The notes under the pieces are model-generated. The model was not told where the DNA came from. It saw only the letters and a list, made by a program, of their open reading frames with translations, and searched no databases. The position numbers were made by a program, and so were the translations under genes. From positions 186,001 to 250,000 of the forward strand of contig CATOTS010000004.1 in NCBI GenBank assembly GCA_951813625.1: DNA of 64,000 bases. The letters are read 5' to 3'. Positions 19,258-41,270 of the stretch are shown one piece after another; within the stretch, counting starts at the first letter, position 1, and each line of letters starts with the position of its first letter. This DNA is from an uncultured Caldilineaceae bacterium (GTDB lineage: Bacteria > Chloroflexota > Anaerolineae > Caldilineales > Caldilineaceae).

Positions 19258-19390
19258 GAGCGCACTATTCGGAGGCGACTGACGGCCGCCGGGTTCCCAG
19301 CAGGGCCGCGTGGAGGGTTTCAGCGCGTTCGGAGACCATTCCAACGAGACGAAATTCACCCCTTCAGTTTCCCAAGGCAGATATTTACCT

Positions 19391-20722
19391 ATGGCAGACA
19401 TTTTGAAGATCAGCAATAGCGGCCCACTTGCTGGCCGCTGCACCGTTCCGGGTGACAAGTCGATCAGCCATCGAGCGGTGATCTTCAGCTCGCTGGCGGA
19501 GGGGCGGTCCTACATTCGCAACTTTCTGGACGGGCATGATTGCCGCGCGACGATGAATATCATGCGGGCGATGGGCGTGGATATCGACGAGATCAGCCCG
19601 ACGCAACTGGAGATTGAGGGCGTCGGCGTTGACGGTCTGCGGGAGCCGGAGGGCGTGTTGGATTGCGACAACAGCGGCACGACGATGCGCTTGCTGGCGG
19701 GGCTGCTATCCGGCCAGGAGTTTGTAAGCGTTCTCAGCGGGACGGCACAGATCCGCAGACGTCCGATGGCCCGCATCGTTGAACCGTTGCGCTCGATGGG
19801 CGCGCAGGTATTTGGGCGCCAGGGCGGAAAGTACGCGCCGCTGACAATTGTACCCAGCCGGTTGGAAGCGATTGAATACGAGATGCCGATCGCCAGCGCG
19901 CAGGTGAAGAGCTGCATTCTGCTGGCAGGATTATATGCGCATGGGCTGACGGTCGTCCACCAGCCGGGGCCAGCCCGCGATCATACCGAGCGAATGCTTA
20001 TTTCGATGGGCGCGCCGGTCTCGGCGCTCGGCAACACGACGCACAGTGAGCGGCCCCAGTCGCCGCTCAAACCGATGAGTCTGTTTGTTCCGGGGGACAT
20101 CTCGTCGGCTGCCTTTCTGCTTGTGGCGGCGTCGGCAATTCCCGACAGCAACCTGACGATCCTCGACGTTGGCATCAATGCCACGCGCACGGGCATCGTG
20201 GACGCGCTGTCGGAGATGGGCGCCAGCATTCGGCGCAGAGAGCGGCCGCACCAGGGGGGAGAGCCGGTCGCGGACCTGATTGTCAGCGGCGGCGGTCTGC
20301 AGGGGCTGGAGTTCGGCGGTGGGCAGCTCGTGACGATGATCGACGAGCTGCCAGTCCTGGCGGTAGCCGCTACGCAGGCTGAGGGCCGCACGGTGGTACG
20401 CGATGCCCAGGAGCTGCGGGTAAAGGAGACCGACCGGATCGCCACGACCGTTTCCGAACTCAAGAAGCTGGGGGCACAGATCCAGGAGACCCCTGACGGA
20501 TTTGTCGTTGACGGGCCGACGCCGCTGAAGGGCAACAGGGTGGACAGCCACGGCGATCACCGGTTGGCGATGGCGCTGGCGGTCGCCGGTCTCATTGCCG
20601 ACGGCGAAACGACGATTCGCAACGCGCAGGTTACGGCGGACAGCTTCCCAGGTTTTGAGACCACATTGCGCGCCCTGGATGTGGAGGTGCAGGAGTTGGA
20701 TAGGGCAAGCGAAGATGAGTGA
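19391..20722 (+). CDS. aroA: 3-phosphoshikimate 1-carboxyvinyltransferase (EPSP synthase)
   Basis: Transfers enolpyruvate from PEP to shikimate 3-phosphate. 443 aa. Hallmarks: PGDKSISHRAVIFSSLAEG at the N-terminus, CDNSGTTMRLL, QVKSCILLAGLYA, VPGDISSAAFLL, the catalytic TDRI-containing ELRVKETDRI, and GDHRLAMALAVAG. The N-terminal sequence resembles the Bacillus-type (class II) enzymes. ATG 19391 is chosen because family homology begins there; an in-frame start at 19310 adds 27 unrelated residues. The last 8 nt overlap aroE (ATGAGTGA), so the two are translationally coupled. Confidence 0.95.
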   Translation: MADILKISNSGPLAGRCTVPGDKSISHRAVIFSSLAEGRSYIRNFLDGHDCRATMNIMRAMGVDIDEISPTQLEIEGVGVDGLREPEGVLDCDNSGTTMRLLAGLLSGQEFVSVLSGTAQIRRRPMARIVEPLRSMGAQVFGRQGGKYAPLTIVPSRLEAIEYEMPIASAQVKSCILLAGLYAHGLTVVHQPGPARDHTERMLISMGAPVSALGNTTHSERPQSPLKPMSLFVPGDISSAAFLLVAASAIPDSNLTILDVGINATRTGIVDALSEMGASIRRRERPHQGGEPVADLIVSGGGLQGLEFGGGQLVTMIDELPVLAVAATQAEGRTVVRDAQELRVKETDRIATTVSELKKLGAQIQETPDGFVVDGPTPLKGNRVDSHGDHRLAMALAVAGLIADGETTIRNAQVTADSFPGFETTLRALDVEVQELDRASEDE

Positions 20723-21626
20723 GCCGCAGAAAGACATTGTCGACTCGGACCCATTTCCGATCGACATAAACGCCACGACCACCCTTGTCGGTCTGTTCGG
20801 CTGGCCGGTGACCCATTCGATCAGCCCGCAGATGCACAACGCCGCGTTTGTGGCGCGTCAGATGAACTGGCGATACGTTGCGTTCGGCGTTCCGCCCGAG
20901 CGGGTAAGGGAAGCTGTGGCGGCCCTGCCGGCTCTGGGTCTGCGGGGTGTCAATGTAACTGTGCCGCATAAGCAGGCGGTGATGCCCCATTTGCATCACT
21001 GGACCGCGGCGGCCGAGGCGATTGGCGCGGTCAACACGATAGTGGTTGGTGAGGACGGGCAGCTTACGGGGGACAACACGGACTCGGCCGGATTCATCGC
21101 CGACCTGCGTGCGCACGAGGTCGATCCCGGTGGAAAGCGCAGCCTGATCATCGGCGCTGGCGGTTCTGCGAGGGCGGTCGTCTACGGGTTGGCCGAGGCG
21201 GGCGTACAGAGCGTAAGGATTCTCAACAGAACTGTTGCCAAGGCAGTCGAACTGGCGGCGACGATGCAGAGCTATTTCCCTGAGATCCGGATCGAGGGCG
21301 GGTCGTTTCCCGACGGGGTAGCCGCCGGGGCAGAAAGCGCCGATCTGATCGTCAACTGCACTTCGCTGGGCATGGACCCGCACGTTGAGGGGCTTCCGTG
21401 GGAGGAGGATGTCGAGTTTCGCGAAGATCAGATCGTCTATGACCTGGTCTACATACCGGCGATGACGCGCCTGCTGCAGCTGGCATCGACCGACGGGGCC
21501 AAGGCGATCGGCGGCCAGGGGATGCTCGTTTACCAGGGGGCGATTGCGTGGGAAAAGTGGACCGGCGAAGGGGCGCCCGTCGCGGTGATGCAGCGGGCGA
21601 TCAATATCATTTTTGAGCGCAGATGA
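20715..21626 (+). CDS. aroE: Shikimate dehydrogenase
   Basis: NADPH-dependent reduction of 3-dehydroshikimate. 303 aa, somewhat longer than usual because of a ~22-residue N-terminal extension. Visible: [17 protein letters not shown] (substrate site), GVNVTVPHK with the catalytic Lys, GDNTDSAGF with the catalytic Asp, [17 protein letters not shown] (dinucleotide binding), LNRT, and the C-terminal [17 protein letters not shown]. It starts inside aroA. Expected to work with the aroB and aroQ products encoded in the minus-strand block. Confidence 0.95.
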
Positions 21627-21669
21627 CGTTACGCGGCCCGTCGGTCGCGATACGCACAGTGAGGAACCG

Positions 21670-22920
<1,251 letters not shown>

Positions 22921-22946
22921 CGCCGGGTTTGGGCGCGAGGTGAAAG

Positions 22947-23756
22947 ATGAGCGGTGTCGAACGAATAGAGCAGCTTTTTGGAGAGCTGAAACGGTCGGGC
23001 AGCGCGGCGTTCATGCCCTATCATGCGATGGGTTATCCGACGCGGCAGCAGTCTCTCGACGTAATTGCAGCGCTGGCCGAGGCGGGAGCGGACCTGTTCG
23101 AGATTGGGATTCCGCACAGCGACCCGCTGGCGGACGGTCCTACGGTGCAGACGGCCACGTATGCGGCGCTGGTGGGCGGCACGACGGTGGCCGATTGTTT
23201 GCAAATGGTGCGCGAGCTGCGCGCGCGCGGTGTGGAGCAGCCGTTCTGCGCGATGAGCTATTACAATCCAGTTCTGGCGTTCGGCGAGGAGCGGTTCGCA
23301 CAGGCGGCGGCGGACGCGGGGGTTGACGGGTTGATTGTGCCCGATCTTCCGCCGGGCGAGTCGGAACTGCTGGAGCCGGCCTGCAGGGCGGCCGGACTGG
23401 CGACAATTTACATGCTGGCCCCGACCAGTACGGAGGAGCGGATCAAGTCGGTGGCGCGCCATGCGACCGGATTCATTTATCTTGTGAGCGTAACCGGGAT
23501 TACCGGCGCGCGTGACGAGCTGCCGCCGGGTTTGCAGGGCTTTGTCGAGAGGGTGCGACGCCACACGGACCTGCCCCTCGCGGTCGGATTCGGTATCAGC
23601 ACCGGTCCGCAGGCCGCGCGCGTGGCGGAGATCGCCGAGGGGGTGATTGTGGGTTCGGCGCTGGTCAAGGCGGCCGGTTCAGCCGATTGGGTCAGCGAGG
23701 TGCCCACCCTGGCGAGGCAACTGGCGGAGGGCAGCCACAGGTTGGCGGTGGACTGA
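22947..23756 (+). CDS. trpA: Tryptophan synthase alpha chain
   Basis: Releases indole from indole-3-glycerol phosphate and channels it to TrpB. 269 aa, TIM barrel. Catalytic Glu and Asp are in [43 protein letters not shown] and [15 protein letters not shown] are typical. The phosphate-binding GFGIS is present. The gene is 26 bp after trpB and ends the plus-strand aromatic run, 23 bp from the convergent regulator gene. Confidence 0.95.
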
Positions 23757-27968: not shown

Positions 27969-29309
27969 CTACTTTCCGTTGGCTTCATTGATGAGGGTCG
28001 CGGCCTGCAGAACGGCCTCCTGCGGCGTGGCGGCGCGGTCGAGCGCCTGGGCGATCATTTCTTCGGCATAGCTCCAGACCTCGTCCAGTTCGGCGCGGTG
28101 GGGAAGGGGCAGGGCGGTGGCGGCCTGGAACGAGAAGCCGGTCAAGAGCGCGTCGCCGCCGAGGTCGGCGTCCTTGTGTGCGGGCAGACGGCCGGCGATC
28201 TGTGCCAGCCGCGAGGCGCTCTCTGCGCTGGTTATGTATCGCGCCAGCGCCATGGCGTGCTCCTGCCGCTCGGCGGGGACAGCCGCATTGAGGAAGACGC
28301 CGTCTGCGCCCAACCAGGGACGAGCGGGACCGTTCGGTCCATCCGGTAGCGGCGCGACGCCGAGGTCTGCGCCGAATCGCTGGCGCAGCTCGTTGATACT
28401 CCACGGTCCGTCGACGAACAGGGCGAACTCCTCCTTCTTGAAGCGGTCCATCAGCATTCCGTAGTCGAGGGCTGTGAAGATGCCGGGCGTCTCCTGGGCG
28501 CGCAGGAGCCAGTCGAGGAAATCGGCGGTCCCGGACGACTGGTCGAGGACGACGCGGCCATTCTCGGCGAAGAGGGCGCCGCCGTAGGCGGGAATGGCCC
28601 AGAAGAGGTGGTAGAAGTTGGTGTAGATGCCGATTCCCTGGGAGGGCGAGGCCTGCGCCAGGTCGATGATGTCGTCGGTGTTGGCCGGCAGGGCCTCAGC
28701 GGCCAGCAGGCGCCGGTTGAAGTAGAGGGCTACAAGCTCGTAGTGTGTGGGCAGGCCGTAGAGCCGGCCATGCCAGGAGAGGTTTTCGACGGCTGCAGGG
28801 ATGTATTGGGCGCGTTCCTGGGCGGGGACCCAGGTGTCCAGGGCCAGGAGGAGGTCATCCGCTGCGAGCTGGCGCAGCCACCAGCCGGGGCCCATGAGCA
28901 GGTCGGGTCCGCCGCCGGCCCTGGCGGCCTCGGTGTAGGCCTGGGCGAGCTCGCCGTAGGCGACGAAGTTCGACTGCACCCGGATGTCGGGCCGGCCCTG
29001 CTGGAAGCGGGTCAGGATTTGGGTCAAGGCGTCGGCCTCGCTGCCGGTCCAACTGTGCCACAGCTCGATTGTTGTTGCGGCCGATGCGCGTGCGGGCTGC
29101 GATGCTTCGGGGGTGCTGACGGCGGTTGGCGTTGCCGTGGCGGCGGCTGTGGGAACGAATTCGACGGCTGGATCGAGGTCGGGCGCGGCGGCCGGTGTCG
29201 CAGCCGGCCAGCCGTCGGGCCAGCGAGAGGAGATTACCAGGACGGCCGAGACGGCCAGCACGTTGAGTAGGGCGAGCGTCCAGAAGAGACGCCAACGGAA
29301 ACGGGACAT
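27969..29309 (-). CDS. Extracellular solute-binding protein, family 1 (sugar ABC type), orphan
   Basis: 446 aa. One N-terminal membrane anchor (FWTLALLNVLAVSAVLVI) is followed by a ~50-residue A/T/P linker and a family 1 binding protein domain starting TIELWHSWTGSEADALTQIL, with LYGLPTHYELVALYFN, FALFVDGPWSINEL and the usual C-terminal helices. Family members bind maltose-like or other oligosaccharides for ABC import. No cysteine lipobox is present, so it is an anchored rather than lipidated protein. No permease or ATPase is adjacent, so its transporter must be elsewhere, or it could be read through from aroQ 108 bp upstream. Confidence 0.85.
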   Translation of the reverse strand: MSRFRWRLFWTLALLNVLAVSAVLVISSRWPDGWPAATPAAAPDLDPAVEFVPTAAATATPTAVSTPEASQPARASAATTIELWHSWTGSEADALTQILTRFQQGRPDIRVQSNFVAYGELAQAYTEAARAGGGPDLLMGPGWWLRQLAADDLLLALDTWVPAQERAQYIPAAVENLSWHGRLYGLPTHYELVALYFNRRLLAAEALPANTDDIIDLAQASPSQGIGIYTNFYHLFWAIPAYGGALFAENGRVVLDQSSGTADFLDWLLRAQETPGIFTALDYGMLMDRFKKEEFALFVDGPWSINELRQRFGADLGVAPLPDGPNGPARPWLGADGVFLNAAVPAERQEHAMALARYITSAESASRLAQIAGRLPAHKDADLGGDALLTGFSFQAATALPLPHRAELDEVWSYAEEMIAQALDRAATPQEAVLQAATLINEANGK

Positions 29310-29417: not shown

Positions 29418-29864
29418 TCAATCGTTCTGTTTCTCGTTCAGGTGTGCCAGCAGCCCCTGCAGTCCAAGCAGGTAGCTACGCCAGCCAAAGCCGCTGATCT
29501 GGCCGACACAGACGGGCGCGATGACCGAGCGGTGGCGGAACTCTTCGCGGCTGTGGACATTGCTCAGGTGGACCTCGACGGCGGGCAGGGCAACGCCGGA
29601 TATGGCATCGCGGAGGGCATAGGAGTAGTGGGTGAAGGCGCCGGGATTGAGCAGCAGACCGTCGGCCCATGCGCGGGCGCCGTGTATTTCATCGATTAAG
29701 GCGCCTTCGCTGTTGCTCTGAACGGTGCGGATTTCGTTTTCGGGGCCGGCCGCGTCGACCAGCTCGCGGTCGATCGTTTCGAGGGTAACATGGCCGTAGA
29801 TCGACCGTTCGCGCGTGCCGAGCAGATTCAGATTGGGGCCGTGCAGGACAAGGATTTTGGCCAT
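29418..29864 (-). CDS. aroQ: 3-dehydroquinate dehydratase, type II
   Basis: Dehydrates 3-dehydroquinate to 3-dehydroshikimate. 148 aa, the small dodecameric type II enzyme. [13 protein letters not shown] holds the N-terminal active-site region with the flexible-lid Arg, [16 protein letters not shown] the Asn that anchors the substrate, and [17 protein letters not shown] the catalytic His and lid contacts. ATG 29864 matches the family start; the frame is open to 29891. It follows the aroKB fusion and is the last recognisable aromatic gene of the T-box operon. Confidence 0.95.
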
Positions 29865-29948
29865 GGGTCGCTCTCGTGTTGGCTGTGGCAATTCAGTTAC
29901 GCCGCTGCGGCGGATTTGCCAGCCGCTGCGGTCCGGTCAACTCAGCGT

Positions 29949-31574
29949 CTAAGTCAGCACGGACGCCAGCGCCGCGCGTACAAATTCGGCGCCGGGGTCG
30001 TCGATGATGACGACATCTCCGATCGCCTGGGGGATGATGAAGCGCAGCATCTTTCCCTGGCGCTTCTTGTCCTGGAACATCATTGCGTAGACTTCGTCCA
30101 GGTCGAGGCCGCCGGCCGATGTGGGCAGGCCCAGCCTTTCGAGACAGTTTTCGATGCGGTCGGCGGTCGGCTGGTCGCACCGTTCCAGGGCCACGGCCAT
30201 GCGGGCGGCGGCGATGGTTCCGACGGCAACGGCCTCGCCGTGGCGCAGGCGGTAGCCGCTGACCTGCTCGATGGCGTGGCCGAAGGTGTGGCCCAGGTTG
30301 AGGGTTGCCCGCCGGCCGCGCTCGAACGGGTCTTCGATCACGACTTCGACCTTGACGCGGACGGCGTCGGCGATCATCTGGGTCAGATTGGTGGGGCCTT
30401 CTTTTTCCAACTGGCGGAAGAGTTCGGGGGCTCCCAGGATCCCGTGTTTTACGATTTCGGCCAGGCCGGCGCGGAACTCGGCCGCGGGCAGTTCGGCCAG
30501 GACGTCGGGATCGATGATAACGACCGCGGGCTGTTTGAAGGCGCCGACGAGGTTTTTGCCCTGGGGCAGGTCGACGCCGGTCTTGCCGCCGACCGAGGCG
30601 TCGACCATCGATAGTAAGGAGGTGGGGATCTGCACAAAGGGCGCGCCGCGCAGGTAGGTGGCGGCGGCGAATCCGGCCATGTCGCCGACGACGCCGCCGC
30701 CGAGGCCGATGATGGGGCTGCGGCGGTCGAGCCCGGCGGTGACGAACTGGTCGTAGAGGCCCTGAACGGTTGCGAGCGTTTTGTGCGCTTCGCCTTCGGG
30801 AACGGTGCAGAGGACGGGCGCGTAGCCCTCCTGTCTGAGGCTATCGCTCAGGGTCTCGGCGTAGTGGGCGGCGATATCGGCGTTGGTGACGATCGCGGCC
30901 TGGCCCTTTGCCAGGTTTCGATTGGCGAGAAGGCGGCCTGATTGCGCCAGTATGCCCTCGCCGAGGCAGATGTGATAGTGGCCTTCGGGCGTTGGGACGG
31001 TGATGCGCGTCATTCCGGCGAATTCGTTGTTGCCGGCCAGCGTGTCGAAGACGCGTTCGGCGACTGCGGCGGCTTCGACGCCGTCGGTCGGCACGTGCAG
31101 GGGAATTCGTGCGTAGGCCTCGCGACGGCTGAGCAGAAGACTCTCGATGTTGCGTCTTTTTTCGGCGCGGTCGCCGGGCAGAAGGGGCCGATCTTCGAAG
31201 GCCTCGACCCTCTCCAGCACGGTGTCGGCGCCGGCGGTCAGACAGACGACTGGACCGCTTTCGGCAAGGGATTGCCGGTTCTGGTCGTTTACCAGGGCGC
31301 CGCCGCCGGTCGCGATCACGAGGCCGGTCTCGTTGGCCAGCTGCTGGCAGAGGCGGGCCTCGGCCTGGCGGAAGACCTCCTCGCCATCGTCGGCGAAGAC
31401 CTCGGCGATGGTCTTGCCCAGTTCGGCCTCGAGGTTCTCGTCCATATCAACGAGGCGGCGGCCAAGGCGCTCGGCGAGGATCCGCCCGACGGTGGTCTTG
31501 CCGGTTCCCATGAATCCGGTAATCGTCAGGTTGGAGTCGTCGGCTATCGGGGTATCGTGAGATTGCATCGTCAT
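29949..31574 (-). CDS. aroKB: Bifunctional shikimate kinase / 3-dehydroquinate synthase
   Basis: 541-aa fusion of two nonconsecutive pathway enzymes. Residues ~15-180 are shikimate kinase: Walker A GFMGTGKTTVGR, DMDENLE, ATGGGALV, and RRNIESLLLSRREAYA. From ~190 on comes 3-dehydroquinate synthase: VPEGEAHKTL, GLGGGVVGDMAGFAAATYLRG, PTSLLSMVDASVGGKTG, EIVKHGIL, NLGHTFGHAIE and HGEAVAVG, which include the NAD- and zinc-binding residues. No stop or frame change occurs at the junction, so this is a genuine fusion. It lies between aroC and aroQ. Confidence 0.94.
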   Translation of the reverse strand: MTMQSHDTPIADDSNLTITGFMGTGKTTVGRILAERLGRRLVDMDENLEAELGKTIAEVFADDGEEVFRQAEARLCQQLANETGLVIATGGGALVNDQNRQSLAESGPVVCLTAGADTVLERVEAFEDRPLLPGDRAEKRRNIESLLLSRREAYARIPLHVPTDGVEAAAVAERVFDTLAGNNEFAGMTRITVPTPEGHYHICLGEGILAQSGRLLANRNLAKGQAAIVTNADIAAHYAETLSDSLRQEGYAPVLCTVPEGEAHKTLATVQGLYDQFVTAGLDRRSPIIGLGGGVVGDMAGFAAATYLRGAPFVQIPTSLLSMVDASVGGKTGVDLPQGKNLVGAFKQPAVVIIDPDVLAELPAAEFRAGLAEIVKHGILGAPELFRQLEKEGPTNLTQMIADAVRVKVEVVIEDPFERGRRATLNLGHTFGHAIEQVSGYRLRHGEAVAVGTIAAARMAVALERCDQPTADRIENCLERLGLPTSAGGLDLDEVYAMMFQDKKRQGKMLRFIIPQAIGDVVIIDDPGAEFVRAALASVLT

Positions 31575-31613: not shown

Positions 31614-32864
31614 TCAGAAGAGCGTGAACTGCGATGCGTCGATGCGTCCGGCCTGGTGCATGAGAACGGCATTCATGAGCTCAATGGCCAGGCGGGATTC
31701 GAGCGTCACGCCGGCGCGCACGCCAACACAGGGGTCGTGGCGCCCCTTATCGAGGGCAAAGTCGATCTCCTCGAGGTTCTTGCGGACCGATTGCTGGGCT
31801 TTCTGGATTGTCGAAGTGGGCTTGAATCCGACACGGCAGACCAGGGGGGAACCGGTGGTCATGCCGCCGATCAGACCGCCGTGGCTGTTGGCCTGGTAGC
31901 CGCGGCGGCGAATCGGGTCGTTGTTCTGGCTGCCCTTGCGGGGGATGACGCCTACGCCGTCGCCCACTTCGCAGGACTGAACTGCGTTCAGCCCGCCGAG
32001 GGCGCCCATCAGGCGCAGTTTGAGGCTTTGGTAGAGCGGCTCGCCGACCAGAGACGGCGGATTTACTGCCACTACTTCGACGGCGGCGCCGAGTGAATCG
32101 CCCTCGATGCGGGTGCGTTTGATCAGTTGCCCGGCCTCCTGGGCGAACTCGGCGTCGAGAGAGCGAATCTCGGCTTCGTCCAACCTGGTTTCGACCGCGC
32201 CGATCGCATCGGCTTCGATCGTTTGCGATTCCTGCTGCTGCATCACGTTCTGGAAGTGTTGCGCCAGGCTCAGATCGGTCTGCAGGGGGCCGACCTGCGA
32301 GATCGAAGAGATGATTTGCGTGCCGAAGCGTTCTCGCAGAAAGATGCGGGCGATGGACCCGCCGATCACGTCTGAGATTGTGGAGCGGTAGCTGGAGCGG
32401 CCGCCGCCGCGTATGTCGACGAAGCCATGCGACTTATGATATTTGACTAGGTCGGTGTGGCCGGGGCGCACTTCGCCGCGCGGACCGGCGAACTGGTCGT
32501 AGTGGCGTGAACGCTGCGACGTGGAGAGCACGAGCGCGGCGATCGGCTCGCCGGTTGTGAATCCTTCGGCGTAGCTCTCGGTCGCGGAGCCGGACTCGCC
32601 GCCGACTGCGATCGCCGGACCTGAAAGGAGACGATCGATTTCTCCTTCGGCGTAGAGGCCGGAGAGCAGGACCACCCTGTCGGCCTCCTGGCGCGGCGTG
32701 CCGTGGCGGTTGCTGCCGGGGCGGCGGCGGTCAAGAAAAAATTGCACGTCTTCCCGGCGGAGGCGCAGTCCGGCCGGACAGCCGAAGACGATGGTGGTTA
32801 CACCGGGGCCGTGTGACTCTCCGGCGCCGGCGACTGCGAAGAGGGGGCCTCCCAAGATTTCCAT
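31614..32864 (-). CDS. aroC: Chorismate synthase
   Basis: Last common step, EPSP to chorismate, using reduced FMN. 416 aa, a little longer than usual. GESHGPGVTTIVFG at the N-terminus and the RHDPCVGVRAGV region near the C-terminus are clear signatures, as are RPGHTDLVKYHK and NSHGGLIGGMTTGSP. The central signature reads GGGRSSYRSTISD where most enzymes have GGGRSSARETA, a noticeable departure at the FMN/substrate loop. 11 bp after trpF and 39 bp before aroKB. Confidence 0.92.
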   Translation of the reverse strand: MEILGGPLFAVAGAGESHGPGVTTIVFGCPAGLRLRREDVQFFLDRRRPGSNRHGTPRQEADRVVLLSGLYAEGEIDRLLSGPAIAVGGESGSATESYAEGFTTGEPIAALVLSTSQRSRHYDQFAGPRGEVRPGHTDLVKYHKSHGFVDIRGGGRSSYRSTISDVIGGSIARIFLRERFGTQIISSISQVGPLQTDLSLAQHFQNVMQQQESQTIEADAIGAVETRLDEAEIRSLDAEFAQEAGQLIKRTRIEGDSLGAAVEVVAVNPPSLVGEPLYQSLKLRLMGALGGLNAVQSCEVGDGVGVIPRKGSQNNDPIRRRGYQANSHGGLIGGMTTGSPLVCRVGFKPTSTIQKAQQSVRKNLEEIDFALDKGRHDPCVGVRAGVTLESRLAIELMNAVLMHQAGRIDASQFTLF

Positions 32865-32875
32865 GCTTCAACCCC

Positions 32876-33580
32876 TCACAGGTCTCTGCCGCGGTTGGCC
32901 TGCGGCGCCCGCGTTTTGGCTGCGGCAATGAATGCCCGGACTTTGGCGGCATCTTTGCGTCCGGGTCCGATTTCAACGCCGCTGCTGACGTCAACGGCCC
33001 AGGGCTGTACGGCGTCGACGGCGGCGGCGACGTTGTGAGGCGCCAGTCCGCCGGCGAGGACGAGGCGCGGGCAGGTGCGAGCGAGTTCGGCGGCTGCCTG
33101 CCAGTCGGCGCGTTTGCCGGTGCCGCCGTACTCGTTGGGGTCGTAGGCGTCGACGAGAAGCTGGGGGCCGTCAGCGGGGCCGAGGTCGGCGTACCACTCG
33201 GCATCGAGGCTGGCTTGGGCGGCGCTGGTCGGCCGCAGGGCTTTGAAGCCGCGTCCCCGGAGCAGTTCGACGACTGCGGGCGGCTCGTCGCCGTGCAGCT
33301 GGGCGTAGTCAATGTTGGCGCGCAGCAGCGTCTCTTCGACCGCGTTGACCGTTTCGTTGACGAAGACGCCGATGAAGCGCGGTGTGCGATGCGGCGTCGC
33401 GTGCTGGGGGTCTGCGGAGGCATTGCCGGCCAGTGCGACGGTGATCTCGGCTGCCCGTTCGGGCGCGATGTAGCGGGGCGACTTGCTGAAGAAGATGAAG
33501 CCCAGGAAGTCGGCGCCGGCGCGGGCGGCGCAGAGGGCGTCTTCCAAATTGGTAATGCCGCAGATCTTTACTCGCGTCAT
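32876..33580 (-). CDS. trpF: Phosphoribosylanthranilate isomerase
   Basis: Amadori isomerisation of phosphoribosylanthranilate in tryptophan synthesis. 234 aa, TIM barrel. VKICGITNLEDA holds the catalytic Cys; GFIFFSKSPRYI, AQLHGDE, the catalytic Asp in LLVDAYDP, LAGGLAPHNV and VDVSSGVE with the phosphate-binding end are present. A ~15-residue insertion precedes RFIGVFVN. It is separated from trpC by a DUF554 gene. Confidence 0.94.
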   Translation of the reverse strand: MTRVKICGITNLEDALCAARAGADFLGFIFFSKSPRYIAPERAAEITVALAGNASADPQHATPHRTPRFIGVFVNETVNAVEETLLRANIDYAQLHGDEPPAVVELLRGRGFKALRPTSAAQASLDAEWYADLGPADGPQLLVDAYDPNEYGGTGKRADWQAAAELARTCPRLVLAGGLAPHNVAAAVDAVQPWAVDVSSGVEIGPGRKDAAKVRAFIAAAKTRAPQANRGRDL

Positions 33581-33650: not shown

Positions 33651-34382
33651 TCAGACTCCGGCCGCGGCAATGCCCTGGACCCAAACGATCAGCGGTGCGA
33701 TGGCGATGCTGGGCAGCAGGTTGGCGACCCTGATCCTCTTTACTTCGAGCAATGACAGTCCGATGCCGAGGATGACCACGCCACCGGTCGCTGTCAGTTC
33801 GATCACCCAGGGCGTCTGGCGGGACACGTCGCCCAGGCCGCCGCCGAGCGCCATTGCGGCGGCGGATAAACCGCCCTGCACGACGGCGACAGTGCCGACG
33901 CTGAGGAGAACGCCCGGCCCCAGGCTGGCGGCGAAAGGGATGGCTGCGAAGCCGTCCAGAGCGCTTTTGACGGCGAGCAGGTCGTAGTTGCCGAGCAGGC
34001 CATCCTGGATGCTGCCCAGGATCGTCATGGGGCCGACACAGAAGATGAGGCTGGAGGTTACGAATGCCCGCGTTACGTTCCAGCCGGCCACCCTGCCCTG
34101 CCCCAGACGCGTGCCCCAGCGGGCTTCGGCCTGGGCGCCCAGCCAGTCGAGGCCGTCGGAAATCCGCATCAACTCGCCGAGGACGCCGCCGACCACGACA
34201 CTGAACAGGGGGATGAGGAGGTTGGCAGTCCCGCTTGCCATCATCACGCCGATGACCAGCACCATCAGTCCCAGCCCGTGCATGACGGTTTCCTGCACCT
34301 TCGCCGGCATGCGGTTGCCCAAGAGGGTCCCGATTGAGCCGCCGACCAGGACGGTAATGATGTTGAGAACTGTACCTGTCAT
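33651..34382 (-). CDS. DUF554-family membrane protein
   Basis: 243 aa, about seven transmembrane segments. GTVLNIITVLVGGSIGTLLGNRMP at the start and the glycine-rich helices that follow match DUF554 (YdfK-like) proteins; function in the family is unknown, transport being a guess. It lies inside the trp operon between trpC and trpF, 48 bp and 70 bp from each. Whether it has a role in tryptophan metabolism or is a passenger cannot be told from the sequence. Confidence 0.82.
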   Translation of the reverse strand: MTGTVLNIITVLVGGSIGTLLGNRMPAKVQETVMHGLGLMVLVIGVMMASGTANLLIPLFSVVVGGVLGELMRISDGLDWLGAQAEARWGTRLGQGRVAGWNVTRAFVTSSLIFCVGPMTILGSIQDGLLGNYDLLAVKSALDGFAAIPFAASLGPGVLLSVGTVAVVQGGLSAAAMALGGGLGDVSRQTPWVIELTATGGVVILGIGLSLLEVKRIRVANLLPSIAIAPLIVWVQGIAAAGV

Positions 34383-34430: not shown

Positions 34431-35279
34431 TCAGCGCCTCCCTGCGCAGACAAATTCGCGCACCTGTCCGCCGCGTTCGGCCTGGGGCAGCTTGCAGAAG
34501 CTCTCGCCGACGAGAATGGCGTCGCAGCCCATCTCGGCCATGCGCTTGACGTCTTCCGGGTTGCGGATGCCGCTCTCGCCGACCAGGATCTTGTCGGCGG
34601 GGACGCGTTCGCGCAGCCGGGCGGTTGTCTCGATGTCGACGGCGAAAGTCTTGAGATCGCGGTTGTTGACGCCGATTATCTGAGCGTCCACTTCGAGCGC
34701 GCGCTCGACTTCGGCTTCGTCGTGGACTTCGACGAGCGCGGCCATGCCGAGCCGATTTGTGAGACGGAGCAGCTCGCGCAGCTCGGCTTTCCCGAGCACG
34801 GCCACGATCAGGAGCAGGGCATCGGCGCCGGCCGCGCGGGCCTCGTAGACCTGGTACGGGTGATAGATAAACTCTTTGCGCAGGAGCGGCGTGGGCAGCC
34901 CGCCGGCGTGCAGATGTTGCCTGATTTCGGTCAGGTAGGAGAGCTGTCCCTGGAAAAAGCGGGCGTCGGTCAGGCAGGAGATTGCGGCGGCGCCGCTGGC
35001 AGCGAATGTCCGGGCAATCGCGGTTGGCGACCAGTCGTGGGCGATGAGTCCCTTGGAGGGGCTGGCGCGTTTGACCTCGGCGATGAGACTGGCGCCGGCT
35101 TCGGCTGTGAGCGCGGCGGCGAGGTCCAGCGGCGGTTCGGCGACGGCGGCGAGCGCTTTGAGCTGCTCGAGGGGCGTCTCCTCCATCAGCCGCTGCACTT
35201 CCTGCCGCTTCCAGGACATGATCTTGTCGAGGACCTGTCCTTTGTGTTTGCTTATCTCCAACTGCGAGAATTTGGCCAT
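34431..35279 (-). CDS. trpC: Indole-3-glycerol phosphate synthase
   Basis: Ring closure of carboxyphenylaminodeoxyribulose phosphate to indole-3-glycerol phosphate. 282 aa. ILDKI-like VLDKIMSWKRQEV at the N-terminus, catalytic Lys in AEVKRASPSKG, LLRKEFIYHPYQVYEARAAGADALLLIVA, GVNNRDLKTF, and the phosphate-binding ILVGESGI are all present. Monofunctional, not fused to trpF. Four bases follow the trpD stop. Confidence 0.95.
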   Translation of the reverse strand: MAKFSQLEISKHKGQVLDKIMSWKRQEVQRLMEETPLEQLKALAAVAEPPLDLAAALTAEAGASLIAEVKRASPSKGLIAHDWSPTAIARTFAASGAAAISCLTDARFFQGQLSYLTEIRQHLHAGGLPTPLLRKEFIYHPYQVYEARAAGADALLLIVAVLGKAELRELLRLTNRLGMAALVEVHDEAEVERALEVDAQIIGVNNRDLKTFAVDIETTARLRERVPADKILVGESGIRNPEDVKRMAEMGCDAILVGESFCKLPQAERGGQVREFVCAGRR

Positions 35280-35283
35280 TGGG

Positions 35284-36333
35284 TCAGTGTCCGCCGCTCA
35301 AACTCCGGGTCTTTTGGATGAATCTGTCGAGCAGGTCGTTGGCGGCGCCGCTGTCGATAGACTGGGCGGCGGCGTCAAGGCCGGTCTGCCAGTTGCCGCT
35401 GACGGTCGCGAGGGCGGCGGCCGCGTTCAATAGTACCACATCGCGCTTGGGGCCGCGCAGTTCGCCGCTGAGTATTCCACGGGTGATGGCGGCGTTGACG
35501 GCGGCATCTCCGCCTTTCAGCTCGTCCAAGGGCGCGCCGGGCAGTCCGAGGTCGGCTGCCGAGAGTTCGCCTTCGTGGACGGCGCCGTCGCGCAGCTGGC
35601 TGTAGCGGTTGACGCCGCTCGTGGTTAGCTCGTCGACAGCGCGTCCGTCGTCGGTCGTGCCGTGGACGACGAAGGCGGCGGTGCACCCCATCTGGCCGAG
35701 CACCTGGGCCATCGGCGTCGTCAGGTTGGGGCTGGGCACGCCGATGACCTGATGGGTGGCGTTGGCGGGATTGGTCAGCGGGCCGAGTATGTTGAAGACG
35801 GTGCGGGTGGCCAACTCACGGCGGGGGCCGATGGCGAACTTCATGGCCGGGTGGTAGAGAGGCGCGAAGAGAAAGCCGATGCCGACTTCTTCGATGCAGG
35901 CTGCCACCTGTTCTGGACCGAGGCCGAGCTCGACGCCCAGTTCTTCGAGGACATCGGCGCTGCCGCACTGGCTGCTGGCGGAGCGGTTGCCGTGCTTTGC
36001 GACTTTTTCCCCGGCGCCGGCGACAACAAAGGCGACGGTGGTGCTGATGTTGAAGGTCCCAGTCTGGTCGCCGCCGGTGCCGCAGGTGTCGAGCAGGCGC
36101 TGGCCGTTGAGGGCGGGGCGCACCTGAACGGCGACGCGCTTCATGGCGCGGGCGCAGCCGGTGATCTCGGCGACGCTTTCTCCTTTCTGGCGCAGGGCGG
36201 CCAGAAAGGCGCCGATCTGGGCGTCGGTGGCCTCGCCGCCCATGATCTGTGTCATGGCTGCGTCGGCTGCGTCGGCGCTGAGGTCTTGTCCGGCGAACAC
36301 GGTCTCCAATGCCTCATGAAGGGGTGATGCCAT
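35284..36333 (-). CDS. trpD: Anthranilate phosphoribosyltransferase
   Basis: Couples anthranilate to PRPP. 349 aa. The PRPP loop is CGTGGDQTGTFNISTTVAFV, followed by KHGNRSASSQCGSADVLEELG and the anthranilate site HPAMKFAIGPRRELATRTVFNILGPLTNPA. GVNRYSQLRDG occurs later in the chain. Complete at both ends and coupled to trpC by a 4-bp gap. 58 bp separate it from the upstream phosphotransferase gene. Confidence 0.95.
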   Translation of the reverse strand: MASPLHEALETVFAGQDLSADAADAAMTQIMGGEATDAQIGAFLAALRQKGESVAEITGCARAMKRVAVQVRPALNGQRLLDTCGTGGDQTGTFNISTTVAFVVAGAGEKVAKHGNRSASSQCGSADVLEELGVELGLGPEQVAACIEEVGIGFLFAPLYHPAMKFAIGPRRELATRTVFNILGPLTNPANATHQVIGVPSPNLTTPMAQVLGQMGCTAAFVVHGTTDDGRAVDELTTSGVNRYSQLRDGAVHEGELSAADLGLPGAPLDELKGGDAAVNAAITRGILSGELRGPKRDVVLLNAAAALATVSGNWQTGLDAAAQSIDSGAANDLLDRFIQKTRSLSGGH

Positions 36334-36391: not shown

Positions 36392-37483
36392 TCAGCCGGC
36401 CGTGGGAGCAGTCGAATGCAGTGCTGTCACTTGAACGTTCACTATCCGTTCCATCTCGGCGGCGAGCAGGTTCGAGTCTGCCTCACCCAGCGGTGGGAGC
36501 TCCCAAATTTTCAGCGAGCTGCGCACGGCGGCTGTCAATGCGCTGACGAGAAAGGCGCCGTAGGGGGAAGCGGAGCTGTCCGAAGCCGGGTTTTGCGCGG
36601 CGGCGGCTGGAATTTCTCCTTGCCGGACGCCATCGAGCAGAAAGGTCACCGCCTGTAAGTTGAAGAGCCGCAGGTAGAGCTCTGCTCGCTCGGGAAGGCT
36701 TGGGTCCGCCGGGTAAGCGCCGTACTGTTCCCACCAGGTCTCGCGGGCGTGCCTGGCCCAGTCGTTTCCTTCGTAGAAGAGGAAACGGGCGACCTCCTGG
36801 GCCGGGTCGCCAAGGCCGAAGAATTCCCAGTCGACGAGCATAACCCGGTCGGTGTCGAAGAGGGCGTTCTGGGCGGCCAGCTCGCCGTGGACCGGGGTAG
36901 GCGGCGTCTCACCCAACTGGCGCAGGGCGCCGTCCAACGTCCGGTGGGCGGCCGACCACAGCGCGGCCAGAGTTTCGCCCAGGAGCGGGGCAGGGCATTG
37001 CTCGATCCAGGACCGGAGGGGCGCCTCGCCCGCCTGCCAGATCTGCCAGAAGGTTAGCAGGTTGAACGGGTGTGGGCTGAAGCGCTGCACTGCGCCTGGA
37101 TCGGCGCGGTGGATGCGGGCGACCGTTTCAGCGAGCGCGGCCCTGTGTTGGGACACGGTTAACTGAACCGGTTCCCCGGCGGCCCAGCTGTAGACCAGAA
37201 TTTGGCGCGGCAGGCCGTGGGGATAGCGATCGTACCAGAGGGGCTCCGGCGCCAGACCGGCGGCGGCGAACTGTTCGTGGCCGCTGAACTGGCGGCGGCT
37301 GCGGGCCTGGCCGGCGTCGGTGAACATTTTGACGACCGCGTCGAGTCCCACGCCGGTGCGTACGCGCCAGAGCAGGTTGTCGCGCCCCTGCCAGTGGTCC
37401 ACGATCGACACATGCTGATTGCGAAAGCGGCTGGAGGGTGCGTCGGTGAGATAGTCTTGAATGGCCTGCGTCCAATCGATCAT
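36392..37483 (-). CDS. Aminoglycoside/choline-kinase-like phosphotransferase
   Basis: 363 aa of the APH/choline kinase (protein kinase-like) fold. The N-lobe includes NLLWRVRTGVGLDAVVKMF with the ATP-binding Lys. The catalytic loop reads HGELAAQNALF, where HGDLHxxN is usual: the catalytic Asp is a Glu here and the following His is missing. VMLVDWEFFGLGDPAQEVARF supplies the metal-binding Asp. Substrate unknown. It sits between trpG and trpD, 14 bp after the trpG region, and would be expressed with the tryptophan genes. Activity is uncertain given the loop change. Confidence 0.75.
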   Translation of the reverse strand: MIDWTQAIQDYLTDAPSSRFRNQHVSIVDHWQGRDNLLWRVRTGVGLDAVVKMFTDAGQARSRRQFSGHEQFAAAGLAPEPLWYDRYPHGLPRQILVYSWAAGEPVQLTVSQHRAALAETVARIHRADPGAVQRFSPHPFNLLTFWQIWQAGEAPLRSWIEQCPAPLLGETLAALWSAAHRTLDGALRQLGETPPTPVHGELAAQNALFDTDRVMLVDWEFFGLGDPAQEVARFLFYEGNDWARHARETWWEQYGAYPADPSLPERAELYLRLFNLQAVTFLLDGVRQGEIPAAAAQNPASDSSASPYGAFLVSALTAAVRSSLKIWELPPLGEADSNLLAAEMERIVNVQVTALHSTAPTAG

Positions 37484-37497
37484 GTCTATGCCGACGT

Positions 37498-38094
37498 TCA
37501 GATGCTCAGAAAATTTCGCAGCAGGTCGTGCCCGTACTGGGTCAGGATGCTTTCAGGGTGGAACTGGACGCCGAAGATCGGCTTGGTGCGATGTTGCACG
37601 CCCATCAACTCGCCCTCGGCCGTGTGTGCGGTCGCAACCAAATCGGGCGGCAGCGGCTCCTCTACGATGAGGCTATGGTAGCGGGTCGCGGTAAAGGGGC
37701 TGGGGATGCCTTGGAAGAGAGCGCCGCCGTTGTGGTGGATCGGGCTGACCTTGCCATGCATCAGCCTGGGCGCGCGTATGACGGCGCCGCCGTGGACATG
37801 CCCGATGCACTGCTGCCCGAGACAGACGCCGAGGATGGGGGTTTGTTCGCCGAGATGGCGAATGACGTCGTTGCTGACGCCGCTGTCTTCCTGTGGCGTT
37901 CCGGGCCCGGGGCTGATGATGACGCGGCTTGGCTGCTGTTCCATCAGCTCTTCGACCTCGATGGCGTCGTTGCGCCAGACGTGGATGCGGTTGGCCTCCT
38001 CGCCACCCGGCAAGGGGGTCTCGCGCACGATTTCACCCAGAAACTGAACCAGATTGTACGTGAAACTGTCGTAATTGTCGATGACCGCGATCAT
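37498..38094 (-). CDS. trpG: Anthranilate synthase component II (glutamine amidotransferase)
   Basis: Provides ammonia from glutamine for TrpE. 198 aa. IDNYDSFTYNLVQFLGE at the start, SPGPGTPQEDSG, the nucleophile Cys in GVCLGQQCIG and the His-Glu pair in FGVQFHPESILT form the class I amidotransferase triad. Possibly shared with p-aminobenzoate synthesis; no pabA/B is in the window. Located between trpS and the phosphotransferase gene. Confidence 0.94.
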   Translation of the reverse strand: MIAVIDNYDSFTYNLVQFLGEIVRETPLPGGEEANRIHVWRNDAIEVEELMEQQPSRVIISPGPGTPQEDSGVSNDVIRHLGEQTPILGVCLGQQCIGHVHGGAVIRAPRLMHGKVSPIHHNGGALFQGIPSPFTATRYHSLIVEEPLPPDLVATAHTAEGELMGVQHRTKPIFGVQFHPESILTQYGHDLLRNFLSI

Positions 38095-38120: not shown

Positions 38121-39176
38121 CTAGGCTTTTGCAAGCCTCTTTTGGCGGCGTTCGTTGGCGCGGCGAATGCGGTTCCAGACACCGGTCAGTCCCATTGCCT
38201 TTTTCATCTCCATGAGCGTATGCCGCGCCTGTTCCTGCGCGCGCTGGGTGCCTTCATAGATGAGCTGGTCGGTGTATCCCGTCTGCTCGGCGTAGTAGGC
38301 GCGGCGCTCTCTGATCGGTTCGAGGAAGGCTTCGAGCGCGTTGTAGAGTTTGGTCTTTACCTCCACGTCGCCGACGGCGCCTTCGCGATAGCGGCTCTTG
38401 AGGTCATCCACTTCGGCCTTGTCGGGGTTGAAGGTTTCGTGGTAGCTGAAAACCGGATTGCCCTCGACGGTGCCGGGGATGTCGGCGCGGATACGGTTGG
38501 GGTCGGTATACATGCTCATGACACTTTTTCTGACGGAAGCAGAGTCGTCGCTGAGCAGAATTGCGTTGCCGAGGCTCTTGCTCATTTTGGCCTGGCCGTC
38601 GGTGCCGACGAGGGTGCCGCCGACGATGTAGGCGTCCGGCAGTGGGAAGACTTCGGCGTAGGCGTTGTTGAAGCGGCGGGCGATCTGGCGGCTGATCTCG
38701 ATGTGGGACTCGTTGTCTTTGCCGACGGGCACGAGGTGTGCGCGCGGCATGAGGATGTCGGCGGCCTGGAGGACGGGATAGCCGAGCAGGTTGTAGGGCA
38801 TCTGGTCCATGCCGGCGGCGGCTGCCATGTCCTTGATGGTGGGCAGCTGCTGCAGGCGCTCAACGGTAACCATGCCGCTGAGGATGAGGTGCATTTCGTA
38901 GATTTCGTGCACGGCAGACTGGAGGTAGAAGGAGGTCTTTTCGGGGTCGATGCCGATGGCGAGGTGATCGAGCACGATGTCGCGGGCGTTCTGGCCGATC
39001 TGGGCGACGTCCTCTTTGGTCGGCTTGGTGGTCAGCATATGCAGGTCGGCGATGATGAAGAAGCATTCGTACTCTTCCTGGAATGCGAGGCGGTACTGCA
39101 GGCTGCCGACGTAGTGGCCGAGATGCAGTTTGCCTGTGGGGCGGTCGCCGGTGAGGATACGTTTTTTCTGTGTCAT
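38121..39176 (-). CDS. trpS: Tryptophanyl-tRNA synthetase
   Basis: Class I synthetase charging tRNA-Trp. 351 aa. HLGHYVGSLQ is the HIGH-type signature, MPYNLLGYPVLQAADIL and GKDNESHIEISRQIA shape the active site, and AKMSKSLGNAI is the KMSKS loop. It follows trpE by 54 bp behind the T-box leader. Placing the synthetase under control of its own uncharged tRNA links charging capacity and tryptophan synthesis in one transcript. Confidence 0.95.
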   Translation of the reverse strand: MTQKKRILTGDRPTGKLHLGHYVGSLQYRLAFQEEYECFFIIADLHMLTTKPTKEDVAQIGQNARDIVLDHLAIGIDPEKTSFYLQSAVHEIYEMHLILSGMVTVERLQQLPTIKDMAAAAGMDQMPYNLLGYPVLQAADILMPRAHLVPVGKDNESHIEISRQIARRFNNAYAEVFPLPDAYIVGGTLVGTDGQAKMSKSLGNAILLSDDSASVRKSVMSMYTDPNRIRADIPGTVEGNPVFSYHETFNPDKAEVDDLKSRYREGAVGDVEVKTKLYNALEAFLEPIRERRAYYAEQTGYTDQLIYEGTQRAQEQARHTLMEMKKAMGLTGVWNRIRRANERRQKRLAKA

Positions 39177-39230: not shown

Positions 39231-40772
39231 TCAGTTTCCAAATCCTTCCTCGGCACGCTGCACGGCTGCTGAGAGGGCCTTGGCTTTATTCAGGGTCTCG
39301 TGCCATTCGTAGGTGGGGTCGCTGTCGGCGACGATGCCGCCGCCGGCCTGGAGATGGCAGGTGTTGCCCTGCATGACGATAGTGCGGATGGCGATGCAGG
39401 TGTCCATGGTGCCGTCGTAGTCGATGTAGCCGACGGCGCCGGCGTAGAGACCGCGGCGGAGGCCTTCGAGCTCTTCGATAATTTCCATCGCCCGCACTTT
39501 GGGGGCGCCGCTGACGGTGCCGGCGGGGAAGGTAGCCTTGAGCAGGCTGATGGCATCGTGGCCGGGGGCGAGATTACCCTGTACGTCGCTGACGATGTGC
39601 ATTACGTGGCTGTAGCGTTCGATCACCATCATTTCGGGCACGTGGACGGTGCCGTACTCGCATACGCGTCCCAGGTCGTTGCGACCGAGGTCGACCAGCA
39701 TCACGTGTTCGGCGCGCTCCTTGGGGTCGTTGAGGAGCCCTTCGGCGAGCGCGTCGTCTTCGGCCGCCGTCTGGCCGCGCCAGCGGGTGCCGGCGATGGG
39801 ATGGAGAAAGGCGCGGCCGTCTTCGAGCCTGACGTGCATTTCCGGGCTGGAGCCGATAATCCAGAGCGGTTCGCTGCTGCCGGAGGTTTCGGTGAGTCCG
39901 GCCATGTCGTTGAACTCCAGAAAGTACATGTAGGGCGAAGGGTTGAGCATGCGCAGGGCGCGGTAGATGGCGAAGGGCTCGGCGTCGGTTGTGCGGCTGA
40001 GGCGCTGGCTGGGAACGACCTGGAAGATGTCGCCGGCGGCGATGTACTCTTTGGCGCGCCGCACAGTTTTTTCGTACTCGTCCTGGGTGAAGTTGCTGTG
40101 CCAATCGACGCGGCTGTCTACGGGTGGGTTCTTCGGGTGGGCGAAGGGCTGGCGCAGGTCGCTGACGATAGCGTCGATGCGGGCGACTGCATCGTCATAG
40201 GCAGCTCTGATTTCCTGGCCGGTTGGCGCGCTCTTCGCCGCGATGCGCATGTTGGCGATGACGAGCAGCTTGTGCTGGACGTGATCGAAGACGACCAGGT
40301 TGTCGCTGAAGAGCAACAGCATGTCGGGGATTTCCAGCTTGCGCTGTGCGGTCTGCGGCAGGCACTCGATGAAACGAACGGTGTCGTAGCCGAAGTAGCC
40401 GACGGCGCCGCCGGAGAAACGGGGCAGTCCCGGGACCTCGACGGGCCGGCGCTCGGCCAGCAGGCTGCGGACGGCGGCGAAGGGGTCGCCCTGGCGCCGT
40501 TCCAGCTCGGCGCCGTCGCCCGTACCGACGACGAGCTGGTCTCCGCGGGCGCAAAGCGTCAGTGGGGGCCGCACGCCGAGAAAGCTGTAGCGGCCGACCT
40601 GCTCCCCCTTCTCGACGGACTCGAGCAGGAAGGAAGGGCCGCCGTTTCGCAGCTTGAGGTAGACCGAAACGGGTGTTTCGAGATCGGCGGGCAGCTCGCG
40701 GAAGACGGGGATTGTATTGCCGCAGGCCGCCAACTCCTTTACTTCCTCCAGCGTGGGGCTGTAGGTTGCCAT
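39231..40772 (-). CDS. trpE: Anthranilate synthase component I
   Basis: Makes anthranilate from chorismate with TrpG. 513 aa. The N-terminal tryptophan-binding motif LLES is present (SFLLESVEKGEQVGRYSFLG), so feedback inhibition is expected. The catalytic half contains GDIFQVVPSQRL, PIAGTRWRG, ERAEHVMLVDLGRNDLGR, FPAGTVSGAPKVRAMEII and the final QAGGGIVADSDP. Start ATG 40772 has AGGGAG at 6 nt; the frame open up to 40964 runs into the T-box terminator and is not coding. First gene of the T-box operon. Confidence 0.96.
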   Translation of the reverse strand: MATYSPTLEEVKELAACGNTIPVFRELPADLETPVSVYLKLRNGGPSFLLESVEKGEQVGRYSFLGVRPPLTLCARGDQLVVGTGDGAELERRQGDPFAAVRSLLAERRPVEVPGLPRFSGGAVGYFGYDTVRFIECLPQTAQRKLEIPDMLLLFSDNLVVFDHVQHKLLVIANMRIAAKSAPTGQEIRAAYDDAVARIDAIVSDLRQPFAHPKNPPVDSRVDWHSNFTQDEYEKTVRRAKEYIAAGDIFQVVPSQRLSRTTDAEPFAIYRALRMLNPSPYMYFLEFNDMAGLTETSGSSEPLWIIGSSPEMHVRLEDGRAFLHPIAGTRWRGQTAAEDDALAEGLLNDPKERAEHVMLVDLGRNDLGRVCEYGTVHVPEMMVIERYSHVMHIVSDVQGNLAPGHDAISLLKATFPAGTVSGAPKVRAMEIIEELEGLRRGLYAGAVGYIDYDGTMDTCIAIRTIVMQGNTCHLQAGGGIVADSDPTYEWHETLNKAKALSAAVQRAEEGFGN

Positions 40773-41234
40773 CGTTACTCCCTTTCTGACTGTATTGCGG
40801 CGGGGCGCCGCCCGAAAAAGAACGTCCCCCAGCGCGGCATTTCTGCCAACGCTGGGGGACGAGGTCTCTCGGGACGCCCGCGGTGCCACCCCTGTTAGAC
40901 CGGCATTTGCCAGGAACAAAAAATCCCCTGCATGAAACGCAAGGGAAGCCTGCACCAGTCTCACTCATCGCGGCCAGTCAGTCCTGGGGACTTGGTCACT
41001 GGCTGGGCCGCAGCGCCCTGATAACGGTGGCGTCTCCGGGTCCGACTACTGAGTGACCTGTGCTTTGCTGTCAGTTCTTGGAACTTGCACAGATTGATGC
41101 GGTCACTGTTCGCCGGCCGACTCCCCGGCCCATTCGCGCCCTGCGCTGTTGCCCCGTTTCCACCGTTCCGGGGCTCTCTGGAACCCGCTCTGGGCGCTAC
41201 TCTTCCGGTTCGCGGTCTTTCGTGTTCGATTGTA
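40773..41234 (-). promoter_or_regulatory. T-box leader with tryptophan specifier, upstream of trpE
   Basis: Reading the minus strand: stem I shows the AGTAG loop-E motif (41202-41198) followed by GCGCCC (41197-41192), the AG-bulge/distal-loop pattern AGAGAGCCCCGG ... GGTGGAAACGGGG, and a returning GGGCGC (41141-41136) that leads to GAA and the specifier TGG (41132-41130), the Trp codon. CGTTATCAGG near 41010 is the usual stretch before stem III. The T-box itself, AGGGGTGGCACCGCGGG, is at 40893-40877; its TGGC bulge would pair with an acceptor end GCCA, matching G73 of tRNA-Trp. A terminator hairpin follows at 40861. Uncharged tRNA-Trp should stabilise the antiterminator and let trpE and its operon be transcribed. 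Confidence 0.93.
40814..40861 (-). terminator. T-box regulated terminator
   Basis: On the minus strand a perfect 12-bp stem CGTCCCCCAGCG / CGCTGGGGGACG encloses a 15-nt loop and is followed by TTCTTTTTC. It lies between the T-box motif and the trpE ribosome-binding site, where attenuation by premature termination would act. Confidence 0.92.
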
Positions 41235-41241
41235 GGGGCGC

Positions 41242-41270
41242 AGTATACGCAGTTCCAGCGACGATGTCAA
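41242..41270 (-). promoter_or_regulatory. Sigma-70-type promoter of the trp operon
   Basis: On the minus strand TTGACA (41270-41265), 17-bp spacer, TATACT (41247-41242): a -35 box identical to consensus and a -10 box with five of six matches. Transcription would begin near 41235, about 460 nt before trpE. The left end of the inverted-repeat element at 41289 is only 18 bp upstream of the -35 box. Confidence 0.85.

Follow-up and report, generated by a model that had tools for sequence, protein, structure and literature searches.

A tryptophan T-box leader with a second terminator-like hairpin in stem III, upstream of a trp-aro operon of a Caldilineaceae bacterium

The leader found upstream of trpE on the minus strand of the window, which is the whole 64,000-nucleotide stretch of DNA that was analysed, is probably a single class I T-box that responds to tRNA-Trp and in which transcription meets two checkpoints, one after the other. 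In addition to the regular terminator (T2), a hairpin with a directly adjoining uridine tract (T1) was observed inside stem III, upstream of the antiterminator. We found no description of a terminator in a T-box stem III in the openly searchable literature, taken without subscription papers and preprints, and T1 is apparently a previously undescribed element.

The T-box leader and its parts

The covariance model RF00230, searched with an E-value threshold, was found to match positions 41222-40852 of the minus strand, from stem I to the antiterminator, over its full length (model positions 1-219 of 219) with 79.0 bits and an E-value of 2.5e-17. The initial annotation had proposed a full T-box leader here and a covariance-model search to check it, and the proposal is borne out, though with a score below the gathering score of 93 bits. 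At that threshold an Rfam scan of the whole 64-kb window gave no match at all, and default annotation would therefore overlook this T-box. The long insertions and the high G+C of the leader are consistent with the shortfall. The other T-boxes of this genome, upstream of serS (74 bits) and ileS (92.9 bits), were also observed to score below 93. The Rfam gathering score thus misses GC-rich T-boxes of the Chloroflexota, as it does three of three in this genome.

All of the expected parts were located on the minus strand. A putative sigma-70-type promoter, recognised by its match to the consensus at 11 of 12 positions, is found at 41242-41270 (TTGACA-17 nt-TATACT). The model alignment places the AGUAG motif of stem I at 41201-41197 and the Trp specifier codon UGG at 41132-41130, in register within GAA-UGG-G-CC. 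The stem IIA/B region reads CCGUUAUC, and the T-box sequence AGGGGUGGCACCGCGGG occupies 40877-40893 with its bulge UGGC at 40888-40885. The only tRNA-Trp found in the genome (anticodon CCA, G000:C42:57356-57428, minus strand), which ARAGORN confirmed, has G73 as its discriminator and does not encode the CCA end, and the UGGC bulge is complementary to such a tRNA end. T2 is found at 40815-40861, where a hairpin (40861-40823; dG -34.7 kcal/mol) is followed by UUCUUUUU, and its terminator score d is 41. A T-box that controls transcription requires an overlap between antiterminator and terminator. This overlap is provided here by CUCGUCCCC, the 3' strand of the antiterminator, which is also part of the 5' arm of T2 so that the two structures are mutually exclusive. 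The folding of the leader was furthermore found to be better than that of shuffled sequences (z = -3.6). The near-consensus promoter, AGTAG motif, TGG specifier, strong terminator and G73 discriminator that had been read or predicted from the letters are thereby all recovered. So is their agreement on one amino acid, as the specifier UGG, the UGGC/G73 pairing and the genes trpE, trpS, trpG, trpD, trpC and trpF all point to tryptophan. A tandem T-box was rejected because the leader holds one aptamer only; a single model match and a single T-box sequence were found in it, and no second aptamer.

Several other T-boxes were met in the survey. The serS T-box of the same genome (L022, G000:C15:91700-92400) has a UGGU bulge whereas its tRNA-Ser(GCU) has G73, and the discriminator pair would therefore be a G-U wobble. 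UGGC is found at the serS bulge in several relatives, and the same C to U change occurs in one trpE T-box (L063). T-boxes with a UGGA bulge were observed upstream of M20-family peptidase genes in Caldilineaceae and relatives (L143, L159 and L167, and probably also L265, L267, L270, L279 and L282). An Ile-type T-box (L021, G000:C14:28800-30100) is followed by a short gene with the appearance of an AlaX-like alanyl-tRNA editing gene and then by ileS.

The operon and its genomic context

Eleven genes on the minus strand, from trpE to aroQ, follow the leader in one direction and are spaced 4 to 70 nt apart. These are trpE (39231-40772; TIGR00564 over the cut-off), trpS (38121-39176), trpG (37498-38094; TIGR00566 over the cut-off), an APH-family kinase gene (36392-37483; PF01636), trpD (35284-36333; TIGR01245), trpC (34431-35279; NF001377), a gene for a DUF554 membrane protein (33651-34382; PF04474), trpF (32876-33580), aroC (31614-32864; TIGR00033), an aroK-aroB fusion (29949-31574) and aroQ (29418-29891; TIGR01088). 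An operon of twelve genes had been claimed in the initial annotation; the eleven are well supported, and a gene for an ABC solute-binding protein (27969-29309, minus strand), which begins after a gap of 108 nt, is a possible but uncertain last member. Of the six shikimate/chorismate functions claimed with it, four are present (aroC, aroK, aroB and aroQ), and a count of six requires the inclusion of trpE and trpG. The second gene, trpS, had not been mentioned there, and neither had T1. As this trpS is the only one in the genome and lies inside the operon, the switch would also control the enzyme by which its own tRNA ligand is charged.

The gene order was found to be the same within the genus (L059, L061 and L063-L069), and the order trpE-trpS-trpG-trpD-trpC is retained in more distant Caldilineales. 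The relatives of TrpE with 83-93% identity are from Caldilineaceae genomes (Chloroflexota) assembled from metagenomes. The APH-family kinase and the DUF554 protein, which have no known role in tryptophan synthesis, lie between the trp genes in most of the genus genomes that were checked. The genes trpB and trpA lie outside the T-box transcript, on the plus strand at 21613-23756, and no T-box of their own was found in the genome. Together with aroA and aroE they form a separate plus-strand cluster (19310-23756) that is convergent with the minus-strand genes.

A terminator-like hairpin in stem III

T1 is nested in stem III. Its hairpin, UCCCUUGC-GUUUCA-UGCAGGGGA, was located by a terminator scan at 40924-40946 of the minus strand (d = 30; dG -13.6 kcal/mol), and a tract of six uridines (40918-40923) stands directly 3' of it. 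The hairpin is present in both the minimum free energy and the centroid folds of the whole leader. It is enclosed by the outer helix of stem III (40897-40961), in which AGACUGG (40961-40955) pairs with CCGGUCU (40903-40897), followed by AA. On the 5' side of this helix lies the purine string GAGUG (40962-40966), which fits the RRRxG definition of PMC7583486; in T-boxes a purine string 5' and an AA 3' of stem III form the discriminator motif (PMC7583486).

The sequence features of an intrinsic terminator are present in T1, which has a GC-rich hairpin, a uridine tract directly after it and a positive score. Among 60 distinct T1 elements the d'Aubenton-Carafa score d was above zero in 90%, with a median of 19 (30 here) against a median of 39 for the T2 of the same leaders. 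The tails of T1 and T2 were often observed to be identical (TTTTTTGTT). No antiterminator belonging to T1 itself was identified.

Conservation and trp specificity of T1

Among the trpE leaders of relatives, 51 have a recognisable T-box, and 41 of these were found to carry T1 in the same position. The stems vary widely (for example CCCUUGC, GCCCAUCG, ACGCGC and CCCGUUG), while the hairpin, the directly adjoining uridine tract and the UCA of the loop are retained. T1 also occurs in trpB2 and trpS leaders in other families of the class, and the T1-positive T-boxes of the survey are spread over many families. As judged from these leaders, T1 is a recurrent feature, across the class, of most of the Anaerolineae trp T-boxes sampled.

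The element was observed to be specific to trp genes within the survey. It is present in 25 of 42 trp T-boxes (trpE, trpB2 and trpS) and in none of 54 others, which include ileS-, valS- and serS-type leaders and those of M20 peptidases (Fisher p 3e-12, with shared ancestry uncorrected). Leaders L246-L260 were left out of this comparison because a T tract was part of the pattern by which they had been found. A search of 400 Chloroflexota genomes with a pattern that combines the purine string, the uridine tract and the T-box gave matches in 21, of which 20 belong to the same class and one to another; the reversed pattern, used as a control, gave none.

By the criteria used, T1 is absent from 10 of the 51 trpE leaders with a T-box and from 17 of the 42 surveyed trp T-boxes, and it is therefore not essential for control by tryptophan. 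Some of these leaders truly have no T1; others come close but were scored as negative, as their tract is shorter or interrupted (L093, L177, L215 and L258).

Pairing between the T1 loop and the purine string

The loop of T1 contains a segment of the form GYYUCAC that is complementary to GUGAGRC, which runs from the last part of the purine string into the first part of stem III. In this leader the two segments are GUUUCAU (40932-40938) and GUGAGAC (40958-40964), both on the minus strand. The core GUGA:UCAY is nearly invariant across the leaders. Compensated variants were observed in L171 (GAGA:UCUC) and L189 (GUGG:CCAC). In L089, L091, L097 and L179 the A-U of the sixth pair is replaced by G-C. 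Compensation is only partial in L178, and the fifth position is mismatched in many leaders. When the loops were re-dealt among the 35 distinct combinations, the observed count was reached in 225 of 10000 trials (p about 0.02). A comparison with shuffled loops gave 5.55 against 4.24 +/- 0.13, a difference that mostly reflects the invariant UCA. Taken together, the sequences offer modest evidence for covariation between the purine string and the loop.

The equilibrium fold of the growing transcript gives the pairing of loop and purine string a predicted probability of 0.16-0.38 just before the 3' arm of T1 is transcribed. Once the hairpin is complete, T1 is predicted to replace this pairing with a probability of 0.99.

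Proposed mechanism and alternative readings

The response at T2 would be that of established T-box biology, with which all parts of this leader fit. Stem I would read the anticodon of tRNA-Trp through UGG, and the 3' GCCA of an uncharged tRNA would pair with the UGGC bulge and hold the antiterminator, so that RNA polymerase could read through T2 and transcribe the operon from trpE and trpS onwards. With a charged tRNA, T2 would form and transcription would stop. T1 would be completed before the antiterminator is transcribed and may therefore act as an earlier checkpoint at stem III, either as a leaky terminator or as a pause, stabilised by the hairpin, during which tRNA-Trp could dock. The ability of its loop to pair with the upstream GUGAG would link T1 to the part of the leader that later contacts the tRNA end. 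An effect of T1 on elongation is a proposal, and any dependence of T1 on the tRNA would be conjectural. A T1 that always worked would silence the operon, and T1 should therefore be leaky, conditional or only a pause.

In the first alternative, T1 is a hairpin pause assisted by NusG or NusA that holds the polymerase until tRNA-Trp docks, with no release of the transcript. This is quite possible, although we lean against it. There is an earlier proposal that polymerase pauses at stem III, and NusG-dependent pausing of 30-60 s in vitro is given for glyQS in PMC6197855, which cites Grundy and Henkin 2004. Furthermore, according to PMC12288461, pro-pausing NusG is widespread, its pause signature is a hairpin with TTNTTT, and a pause signal resembles a terminator signal. 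The T1 tail TTTTTTGTT contains TTNTTT. Against a pause, five to seven uninterrupted uridines stand directly 3' of a GC-rich stem and the classical terminator score is passed by nine-tenths of the T1 elements. The frequent identity of the T1 tail with the T2 tail of the same leader also speaks for a terminator, and several T1 tails, for example TTTTTCAT, do not fit TTNTTT.

A more elaborate form of the checkpoint model, which we regard as speculative and rather doubtful, would make the trp T-boxes of the Anaerolineae two-gate switches. T1 would be a real terminator whose formation differs between a free purine string and one held in the tRNA-bound discriminator; the first gate would sense docking and the second aminoacylation, and the arrangement would replace the tandem T-boxes of the Bacillota.

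T1 might also be a mere structural form of stem III, with the uridine tract as a bulge that has no effect on RNA polymerase. T1 lies inside the outer helix of stem III, with which it can coexist, and stem III is known to be variable among T-boxes (PMC7583486). We consider this reading unlikely. T1 is absent from all 54 non-trp T-boxes. The stems, moreover, change freely while the hairpin and the uridine tract are kept, which fits a terminator or a pause signal better than a bulge.

It is very improbable that T1 is an independent attenuator under the control of a leader peptide or a TRAP-like protein, even though TRAP control of the B. subtilis trp genes is a precedent and AUGAGUGAG just 5' of T1 can be read as a start codon. 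The GAGUG there is accounted for as the purine string of the T-box. Leader-peptide attenuation was rejected because the frame from this AUG holds no Trp codon and the start is not conserved, as L064 has UUG instead.

That an ordinary Trp T-box carries T1 as a chance hairpin can hardly be correct. Such elements do turn up in about 2% of random 150-nt windows drawn from these contigs (32 of 1500), but chance is already contradicted by conservation: T1 recurs in the same position in 41 trpE leaders, as well as in the trpB2 and trpS leaders of many families, and its loop always has UCA or a compensated variant.

Comparison with known systems

The Trp T-box on trpE is in itself already known from the Chloroflexota and ordinary. 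Trp T-boxes upstream of trpE and of a trpB-like gene were published in 2008 for Dehalococcoides (PMC2494555), a member of the Chloroflexi, and T-box matches were found in all 100 of the relatives that we searched. The surprise that the initial annotation expressed at a T-box outside the Firmicutes was thus overstated. With the known class I, Trp-specific T-box leader of RF00230, as reported for this phylum from Dehalococcoides (PMC2494555), the present one shares the AGUAG of stem I, UGG, the stem IIA/B region CCGUUAUC, GAGUG, UGGC, the overlap of terminator and antiterminator, the trpE gene and the phylum. The present leader differs in that its stem III contains a terminator-like hairpin, which has a uridine tract and whose loop can pair with the purine string, and in that trpS and four shikimate functions belong to the same transcript.

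Tandem complete T-boxes on trp operons have been reported only from the Bacillota (PMC12452182). The likeness to these lies in two successive terminators ahead of a trp operon, the first of which is terminator-like in our leader. Two successive terminators should tighten the control of a costly amino acid. The tandems have one complete T-box for each terminator, whereas here a single T-box contains both. If T1 terminates, one aptamer would serve two stop sites, a layout that we did not find in the searchable papers. It would then be a different answer from that of the Bacillota tandems to the need to keep costly tryptophan synthesis off.

In T-boxes, which serve as models for RNA-based switching, the role of stem III in transcription is not settled. 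As with the glyQS T-box of B. subtilis (cited in PMC6197855), we propose that something happens to transcription at stem III while the antiterminator has yet to be made. In contrast to glyQS, the stem III described here has a full hairpin and uridine tract, conserved across the class and found, among the T-boxes sampled, in those of trp genes only. The trp leader of B. subtilis (cited in PMC12288461) likewise has a hairpin and a uridine tract before the trp genes, and its pause and termination sites overlap; control there is by the TRAP protein, whereas here it would be by a T-box. A stem III hairpin that is specific to trp and recurs across a class makes the idea of a pause or checkpoint at this position directly testable on one short template.
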